A DNA stretch of 64,000 nt from positions 1,798,001 through 1,862,000 of the forward strand of contig NZ_CP042218.1 of the NCBI RefSeq assembly GCF_007795095.1. The letters run 5' to 3'. Source of the stretch: Luteimonas granuli (GTDB lineage: Bacteria > Pseudomonadota > Gammaproteobacteria > Xanthomonadales > Xanthomonadaceae). Below the pieces are notes generated by a model. It was not told the origin of the DNA. It made no database searches and was given only the letters and a program-made list of their open reading frames with translations. Made by a program: the position numbers and the translations under genes. The stretch's first letter is position 1. Every line of letters begins with the position of its first letter. Positions 51,402 to 52,033 of the stretch are shown here, one piece after another.

Positions 51402-51546
51402 GCCGTTCCCTCCCGATCCCGTGGCGGCGACCGCCATGGGACCGGGTCGCGTGGCCGTGGCCGGCAACTCGTCGTCTGGCCACGGTCGCGCGATTCTTTC
51501 GCCGGCCGGCGGAATCCGTGCGTGCGCTTTGCTAGCATCCGCGCAC

Positions 51547-51868
51547 GGGCCTATAGCTCAACGGTCAGAGCAGGGGACTCATCGAGAAGGTGCCGCCGCG
51601 CAGGAATGCGCGGACGGGAACGGGATGAATTCAGGGAAACCTCAGCGGCGCGCCCAGGCGCGGACGGTGGCAACCCTGAGCCAAGCCGGCGGTACACCGC
51701 CGGAAGGTGCAGAGACTACCTGGGGGCTGCAGTGCCCTTGATGACAGGCTCGAGCGTCCCGCACCCCACCCGCCGCGGCGGAGGGTGAAGAGATAGTCCG
51801 CGCCGCGGGGAAACCCGTGGACCACGCGAATCCCTTGGTTCCAGGTTCGAATCCTGGTGGGCCCACCA
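51547..51868 (+). tRNA. ileX: tRNA-Ile(CAU), interrupted by a group I intron
   Basis: Joining 51547-51582 and 51829-51868 gives a complete 76-base tRNA. The acceptor stem is GGGCCTA with TGGGCCC, the anticodon stem GGGGA with TCCCT (loop CTCATAA, anticodon CAT), the T arm CCAGG TTCGAAT CCTGG, and CCA is encoded. The sequence resembles the minor isoleucine tRNA of bacteria, in which C34 is changed to lysidine by TilS so that AUA is read; AUA should be very rare in this GC-rich genome. An initiator or elongator tRNA-Met also has CAT, but the arm sequences fit tRNA-Ile2 better. The gene is split immediately after the anticodon. The 632-base gap 51402-52033 contains only this gene and its terminator. 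Confidence 0.9.
51583..51828 (+). ncRNA. group I intron in the anticodon loop of tRNA-Ile(CAU)
   Basis: A 246-base intron with no protein-coding frame. The internal guide GTG (51590-51592) pairs with exon CAT, the last pair being the usual T-G at the 5' splice site. P2 is CCGCGC/GCGCGG (51596-51613), and P3 is CGGGAT (51621-51626) with GTCCCG (51756-51761). P7 is formed by AGACTA (51713-51718) and TAGTC (51794-51798), the strongest core signature of group I introns. P9 is a seven-base stem capped by GAAA (51810-51813). The last base is G (51828), as required. The P3-P6 core strongly resembles the well-studied Azoarcus tRNA-Ile(CAU) ribozyme. An extra hairpin (about 51719-51747) sits between P7 and P3. 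Self-splicing is expected from structure, not shown. Confidence 0.93.
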
Positions 51869-51888
51869 AGTCAACGCACCATACGCGC

Positions 51889-51924
51889 ACGCATGCGCAT
51901 ACGGATCGCATGCGTATGCGTTTT
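51889..51924 (+). terminator. terminator after the split tRNA gene
   Basis: ACGCATGCGCAT (51889-51900) pairs with ATGCGTATGCGT (51910-51921), with one G-T pair, and runs straight into TTTT. It lies 21 bases after the tRNA 3' CCA and fits a tRNA transcription end. Confidence 0.75.
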
Positions 51925-52033
51925 CCCGTGATGGACCGGCGCGGCCGCTGACTGGTGCCAATGCCCGGCCGCGCGCGCGTGGTGCACAATATCGTTCTTT
52001 TCCGGCATCTGCGCCGCACCGATCAGGAGTCCC

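Follow-up and report, generated by a model that had tools for sequence, protein, structure and literature searches.

In the Azoarcus tRNA-Ile(CAU) gene, a group I intron of subgroup IC3 is placed after the anticodon, pairs its guide GUG to CAU and carries no endonuclease gene; the introns of this subgroup, which include those of Azoarcus and of tRNA-Leu, have a small core devoid of P7.1/P7.2. Vepritskiy reportedly described, in 2002, a tRNA-Leu(UAA) group I intron in a gammaproteobacterium, a Pseudomonas. The intron reported here interrupts the same tRNA as that of Azoarcus and is also alike in position, guide (GUG to CAU) and absence of an endonuclease. Its kind, its host tRNA and its position were already known from Azoarcus, and we filed it as a variant and not as a new class. 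The tRNA-Leu(UAA) introns also lie in the anticodon loop, but at 34|35 and with another guide.

As far as the cited passages go, the tRNA-Ile(CAU) group I intron of Azoarcus sp. BH72 is named in PMC3984707, and the tRNAscan-SE 2.0 paper mentions group I introns in tRNA-Ile2 of Acidovorax and Burkholderia, with 36 genomes having such introns in fMet or Ile2 (PMC8450103); these introns occupy tRNA-Ile2 as here, in different hosts, and are known by mention, without a structure. Passages of PMC4033280 place tRNA-Leu(UAA) group I introns in cyanobacteria and plastids and give cyanobacteria, alpha- and beta-proteobacteria as the bacterial hosts of tRNA group I introns, and those of PMC1995217 count four bacterial tRNA genes with group I introns as of 2007. 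The latter source also notes P7.1/P7.2 in the introns of phage Twort and of cyanobacterial 23S (L2593), where these helices are said to stabilise the guanosine pocket (PMC1995217). Likened by description only, the Twort and L2593 introns share extra helices between P7 and P3 with the intron described here and reside in other host genes. Among the papers listed by our literature search, which had most subscription journals outside its coverage, none was seen to treat gammaproteobacterial tRNA-Ile2 genes split by a group I intron, in agreement with the preliminary description of the locus, which had cited precedents in beta-proteobacteria and none in the host's group; Acidovorax and Burkholderia introns are in print, by mention (PMC8450103). 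Within that same coverage, the search did not find the P7.1/P7.2 form in tRNA introns, its three host tRNAs or its coming and going within Luteimonas.

The window, that is, the whole 64-kb stretch of Luteimonas granuli DNA analysed here, contains on its forward strand a tRNA-Ile2(CAU) gene with an encoded CCA (51547-51868), which is split directly after U36 by a 246-nt insert (51583-51828; Table 1). Once the insert was removed, the acceptor, D, anticodon and T stems all paired with no mismatch and the loop read CUCAUAA with the anticodon CAU, bearing out the earlier claim that the tRNA is complete only without the 246 bases directly after CAT. The exons closely match the intronless tRNA-Ile2 gene of a sister species (G018). 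ARAGORN at default settings found no tRNA anywhere in the window. The tRNA search with introns suggested earlier (ARAGORN, 100-500 nt allowed) recovered a single gene at 51547-51868 with a 246-nt intron, although the program places the intron two bases early and therefore prints the wrong anticodon. The intron-split tRNA-Ile2(CAU) gene is confirmed by these observations. When 36 tRNA genes with the intron were inspected by eye, many of them, though not every one, had a TAnnAT-like box near the same upstream place; the sigma-70 promoter and terminator scans listed nothing for the tRNA-Ile2 locus. Just 3′ of the tRNA (51860-51925), G+C-rich inverted repeats ending in TTTT, absent from the output of the terminator scan, possibly represent a terminator.

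Table 1. Features of the intron-bearing tRNA-Ile2(CAU) locus, in window coordinates.
Feature	Position	Strand	Basis
Likely -10 box TAGCAT, 8 nt 5′ of the tRNA	51533..51538	+	by eye
5′ exon of tRNA-Ile2(CAU), nt 1-36, anticodon CAU at its end	51547..51582	+	stem pairing; ARAGORN with introns
P1: CATC 51580-51583 / guide GGTG 51589-51592, U.G at the 5′ splice site	51580..51592	+	pair counts
Group I intron, 246 nt, terminal G = 51828	51583..51828	+	RF00028 46.6 bits, E 9.6e-11; no variation in P7 or the terminal G among 34 aligned relatives
P2 hairpin	51596..51613	+	both-side changes at 7/7 pairs, 88.7% of cells paired
P3: 51621-51627 / 51755-51761	51621..51761	+	99.6% paired, both-side changes at 3/7 pairs
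P4: 51631-51636 / 51674-51679; P5: 51640-51641 / 51669-51670	within 51631..51708	+	P4-P6 nearly invariant
P6: 51680-51682 / 51706-51708; P6a: 51686-51692 / 51697-51703	within 51631..51708	+	P6a both-side changes at 7/7 pairs
P7, guanosine-binding helix: GACTA 51714-51718 / TAGTC 51794-51798, pseudoknot with P3	51714..51798	+	invariant in 34/34
P7.1: 51719-51722 / 51745-51748; P7.2: 51723-51727 / 51734-51738	51719..51748	+	pair counts, single-strand fold, relatives' listing, core trees
P8: 51762-51766 / 51783-51787; P8a: 51770-51774 / 51777-51781	51762..51787	+	P8 99.4%, P8a 72-88% paired
P9.0: 51800-51802 / 51825-51827	within 51800..51827	+	both-side changes at 3/3 pairs, 91.2% paired
P9.1, GAAA-capped: 51803-51809 / 51814-51820	within 51800..51827	+	82-87% paired
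3′ exon of tRNA-Ile2, nt 37-76, CCA encoded	51829..51868	+	T arm and acceptor mismatch-free

Rfam at its gathering threshold gave no match in the window. When the Intron_gpI model (RF00028) was searched against 601 bases with an E-value threshold, the insert aligned with the complete model, from position 1 to 253 of 253, at 46.6 bits and E 9.6e-11; the covariance search proposed earlier thus yielded a full-length match, but one under the curated cut-off of 50 bits, so that a default Rfam scan overlooks the intron. In the RF00028 scan of the whole genome (E ≤ 10), the window intron was the sole match listed (E 1.1e-10). The cut-off was passed by 13 of 15 related loci, L113 and L241 falling below it. 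The intron of the relative G003, 98.8% identical to the window intron over gap-free columns, scores 51.5 bits and passes. The insert possesses the conserved core P3-P4-P6-P7-P8 with the P3/P7 pseudoknot (RF00028 positions 1-253; pair counts), an internal guide with a U.G pair at the 5′ splice site (U36.G in 34/34 aligned relatives) and a terminal G before the 3′ splice site (invariant in 34/34, with the 3′ cut in the relatives set by the downstream AATC and no G required). These results support the assignment of the insert as a group I intron within the anticodon loop of tRNA-Ile(CAU).

The relatives in question are 34 intron-bearing tRNA-Ile2 genes selected by GGACTCAT and a core motif, the guide not being used for selection. 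A 91-pair structure, drawn on the window sequence (a choice that favours the structure), had 96.4% of its cells paired over the 34 sequences, with both-side changes at 45 pairs compared to 25.9 (sd 2.2) in shuffles that ignore kinship among the rows. The covariation score was 0.292 versus 0.099 in shuffles, and on each of five measures 0 of 500 shuffles came up to the observed value; pairing dropped to 36-45% when the partners were offset by 1-3 columns. Covariation among these relatives therefore supports the pairing of the intron, with P2, P3, P6a, P9.0 and P9.1 as the covarying helices and P8a as a weaker one. Being invariant, P7 gives no covariation evidence. Pairs 1-3 of P1 were also invariant in 34/34, the CAT itself having been part of the selection, while the fourth was C-G in 33 rows and A-U in one; the guide GTG was unchanged across all rows. 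The single-strand fold lacked the P3/P7 core because that method is unable to draw a pseudoknot. All elements named in the preliminary description were recovered by the RF00028 match and the pair counts, namely the guide GTG (GGTG versus CATC), P2, P3, P7 (GACTA/TAGTC), a GAAA-capped hairpin and the terminal G, and to these we add P4-P6, P8 and a 30-nt P7.1/P7.2 extension. That the insert is no ribozyme, but a G+C-rich stretch inserted by chance or an artefact of assembly, as the sub-cut-off Rfam score might suggest, has a negligible probability in view of the relatives that occupy this position in other genomes, including those of other families, the covariation and the 13 of 15 related loci above the cut-off.

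Group I introns are removed by an established two-step attack initiated by guanosine. We consider it highly probable that the window holds a self-splicing intron in a working tRNA-Ile2, which would then receive lysidine from TilS and read AUA. The gene structure, the family match, the covariation and the conserved catalytic elements were observed, as was the presence of a TilS gene (above cut-off, 497-aa frame), and no other tRNA-Ile2 was found. As predicted from these features, the gene would be transcribed as a pre-tRNA whose intron would adopt a group I ribozyme fold with the core P3-P9 and the extra P7.1/P7.2. The guide GGUG would hold the 5′ exon end CAU in P1 with its U.G pair, a guanosine bound in P7 would attack after U36, and the freed U36 would in turn attack after the terminal G (51828) and join A37. 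TilS would put lysidine on C34 of the spliced tRNA, and the reading of AUA would hence depend on splicing. Counted against this explanation were the Rfam score, the incomplete assembly (89.98%), the rarity of AUA, the absence of a listed promoter and the unremarkable fold of P7.1/P7.2 (z -1.07). In the window, 37 likely ORFs picked by a simple G+C criterion contain 14,457 codons, of which 3 are AUA, a rarity at which poor splicing might be tolerated. Low output may suffice under such rarity, which would also suit an intron that requires a host protein for splicing or is adjusted by one, its removal setting the level of the AUA-reading tRNA; we regard this as very unlikely, as the Azoarcus intron and other small introns of tRNAs splice unaided in vitro.

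The genome searched (2.9 Mb, one contig) is 89.98% complete. Among its 43 tRNAs above the cut-off, none had the anticodon TAT and two had CAT (L010 and L024). ARAGORN called both Met, and we take them to be the elongator and initiator tRNA-Met by their likeness to E. coli tRNA-Met; given this resemblance, both were set aside as candidates for a second tRNA-Ile2. An intronless tRNA-Ile2 pattern with one mismatch allowed matched nothing in this roughly 90% complete genome, and the 11 further genomes of the genus that carry the intron likewise yielded no intronless tRNA-Ile2. tRNA-Ile(GAU) and tRNA-Ala(UGC) were absent among the 43 tRNAs and a 16S search, whose control was positive in only 9 of 14 known genomes, gave no match, suggesting that part of the host genome is missing from the sequence searched. 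The earlier proposal that this gene is the only lysidine-type tRNA-Ile thus stands insofar as no intronless copy was found, but an assembly of this completeness, without a 16S match, could hide one. If it did, the split gene could be a dead copy while an intronless tRNA-Ile2 elsewhere does the work. A precedent for such decay exists in genome G082 (L062, L186; G082:C100), in which an intact intronless tRNA-Ile2 is preceded, 367 bases upstream, by a copy still reading GGGGACTCAT and followed by a degraded intron, the remainder of that tRNA being unrecognisable by eye. This arrangement shows that a copy with the intron can degenerate while an intact gene lies next to it. It seems that such a copy decays once unneeded, which also fits selection on splicing where the intron-bearing copy is the sole one. 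In the window, by contrast, the tRNA stems and the ribozyme core are intact, and no genome of the genus was seen with both forms (12 with the intron and 38 with an intronless gene out of 52). Moreover, among 24 class genomes with an intron at 36|37 of tRNA-Ile2 (see below), 19 had no match to GGACTCATAATC, and in the other five all three of the matches inspected were chance matches outside a tRNA. The same pattern matched 247 of the other 345 genomes and missed 98, so a missing 12-base match is weak evidence for any one genome, yet the contrast remains clear. These observations make a dead copy highly improbable. With a working split gene as the preferred reading, the one tRNA-Ile2 found in this genome would rely on a predicted ribozyme, and default tRNA and Rfam scans would report the gene absent.

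The claim that the intron has no endonuclease gene agrees with the ORF scans: seven ORFs of at least 30 aa overlap it, one of them wholly internal, and the four of these seven that were scanned, including the internal one, had no Pfam match at E ≤ 0.01. Plasmid sequences gave no match to the intron. A phage search returned four records, a pair for each of two phages, in which 19-31% of the query was matched, short similarities being found in HQ634157.1 (Vibrio phage 11895-B1) and MW015081.1 (Synechococcus phage S-SRM01).

We surveyed 52 genomes of the genus, of which the 12 with the intron scored 147-154 bits and two (G037 and G049) lacked both the intron and any match to the intronless pattern; G049 is a complete genome. 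Weak matches to the intron model in G002 and G027 (L362, L363) were located in tRNA-Leu. On a quick rpoD tree (SH-aLRT only) of 50 of the genomes, the intron trait switched at least 9 times and did not cluster clearly (9 changes, compared with 10.8 on average in shuffles, 52 of 500 of which gave as few). In 9 of the 12 intron-bearing genomes and at 15 of 38 intronless places (from 37 genomes, as G009 has two and G006 was left out), the tRNA shares its strand with rpoD and follows it at a distance of no more than 3 kb. This shared position implies that much of the presence and absence of the intron concerns one locus. Intron and rpoD similarities disagreed (97.1% versus 89.5% for G000/G032, 89.3% versus 92.3% for G010/G012), which points to transfer or recombination; an intron tree of 23 rows left most groupings unresolved (stars on 2 of its 20 inner branches) and was too weak to show this. 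The intron-bearing G003 and its intronless sister species G018 did not provide a clean empty site: beyond a shared upstream stretch, their flanks and tRNA alleles differ, so the intronless gene there looks like a replaced cassette and not like a clean loss. Related species with and without the intron offer a way to ask what a tRNA intron costs or brings.

The P7.1/P7.2 extension sets the window intron apart from IC3, which has neither helix. Subgroup IA calls for P7.1/P7.2 together with the IA core signatures, and the window intron, judged on the former feature alone, has these helices. In the 34-row alignment, double changes occurred in 6, 7 and 1 rows at three pairs of P7.2 and in one row (L160) at two pairs of P7.1, while three rows (L081, L169, L182) were misaligned there. 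By eye, these three, as well as the Lys and Thr introns, pair at P7.1/P7.2 with other letters (GGGTG/CACCC, AGGTG/CACCT, GCGG/CCGC, AGAGG/CCTCT and GGGGG/CCCCC). Alone, the stretch folds as drawn, no better than its shuffles. P7.1 is not a feature of all tRNA introns, as it was absent from 14 others compared, two in tRNA-Leu(UAA) (L241, L258) included. The 22 carriers (18 Ile2, 3 Thr(UGU) and 1 Lys(CUU)) are all inserted at 36|37. A core tree of 36 hand-picked rows and 89 columns, taken left of P7.1 and including several long rows, separated them from the 14 rows without P7.1 by one branch (98/93); the tree is unrooted and fits one gain as well as one loss. The same branch (97/88) appeared in a wider tree of 133 columns, in which rows without P7.1 were less filled (18-38 versus 44-74 letters) because their P3′ strand was among the dropped columns. 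L113 (MAG CTSoil_126, 204 nt), the locus nearest to the Azoarcus system among those compared and presumably of Azoarcus type, lacks P7.1/P7.2 and, unlike the window intron, falls among the 14; Azoarcus was compared through this locus only. Since L081 (a Comamonadaceae MAG) and L182 (a Rhizobacter MAG) carry the P7.1-bearing form, the Acidovorax and Burkholderia introns may belong to the same family as the window intron.

By eye, the guides fit their own exons (GUG to CAU, GCA to UGU and GAG to CUU). We give an even chance to the proposal that P7.1/P7.2 introns form a distinct gammaproteobacterial (in the GTDB sense) family of tRNA group I introns with a single origin, settled at 36|37 in at least three tRNAs (Ile2 CAU, Lys CUU, Thr UGU) with a guide fitting each new anticodon, and, lacking an endonuclease, gained and lost within a genus, probably as entire tRNA-gene cassettes. 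Related species with and without the intron also make it possible to ask how such an intron, devoid of endonuclease, passes from one tRNA to another when its guide has to fit the anticodon of each.

When a sample of 369 genomes from the GTDB class was searched with a core model, for which a short calibration makes the E-values rough and strict filters may lose weak matches, 66 matches were obtained in 57 genomes. The host tRNA was assigned for 59 of these matches by reading the exons, which was done by eye for several loci, L224 and L227 included, and by likeness to L237 for L235. The strong matches at Ile2 36|37 (24, in 24 of the 369 genomes) were accompanied by matches in Leu(UAA) (13 at 34|35, one at 33|34), Arg(UCU) 34|35 (7), Thr(UGU) 36|37 (5), Ile2 33|34 (3), Arg(CCU) 36|37 (2), Lys(UUU) (2), Lys(CUU) 36|37 (1) and Ser(UGA) 34|35 (1). 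Across 398 genomes of the phylum, 34 matched, with scores above 80 bits in the host genome itself only. One genome, G656, had three intron-model matches (C1:604895, 888254 and 899543), the best of which (L365) lies within tRNA-Ile2. Among the class matches, the introns hosted by tRNA-Lys(UUU), tRNA-Ser(UGA) and tRNA-Arg(UCU) (L248, L252, L255, L261-L264, L271, L273 and L275) occupy tRNAs not named as hosts in the cited passages of the literature. At L243, L253 and L257 (G146, G132 and G107), tRNA-Ile2(CAU) is split at 33|34, before the anticodon, by a group I intron without P7.1, revealing a second insertion site in this tRNA.
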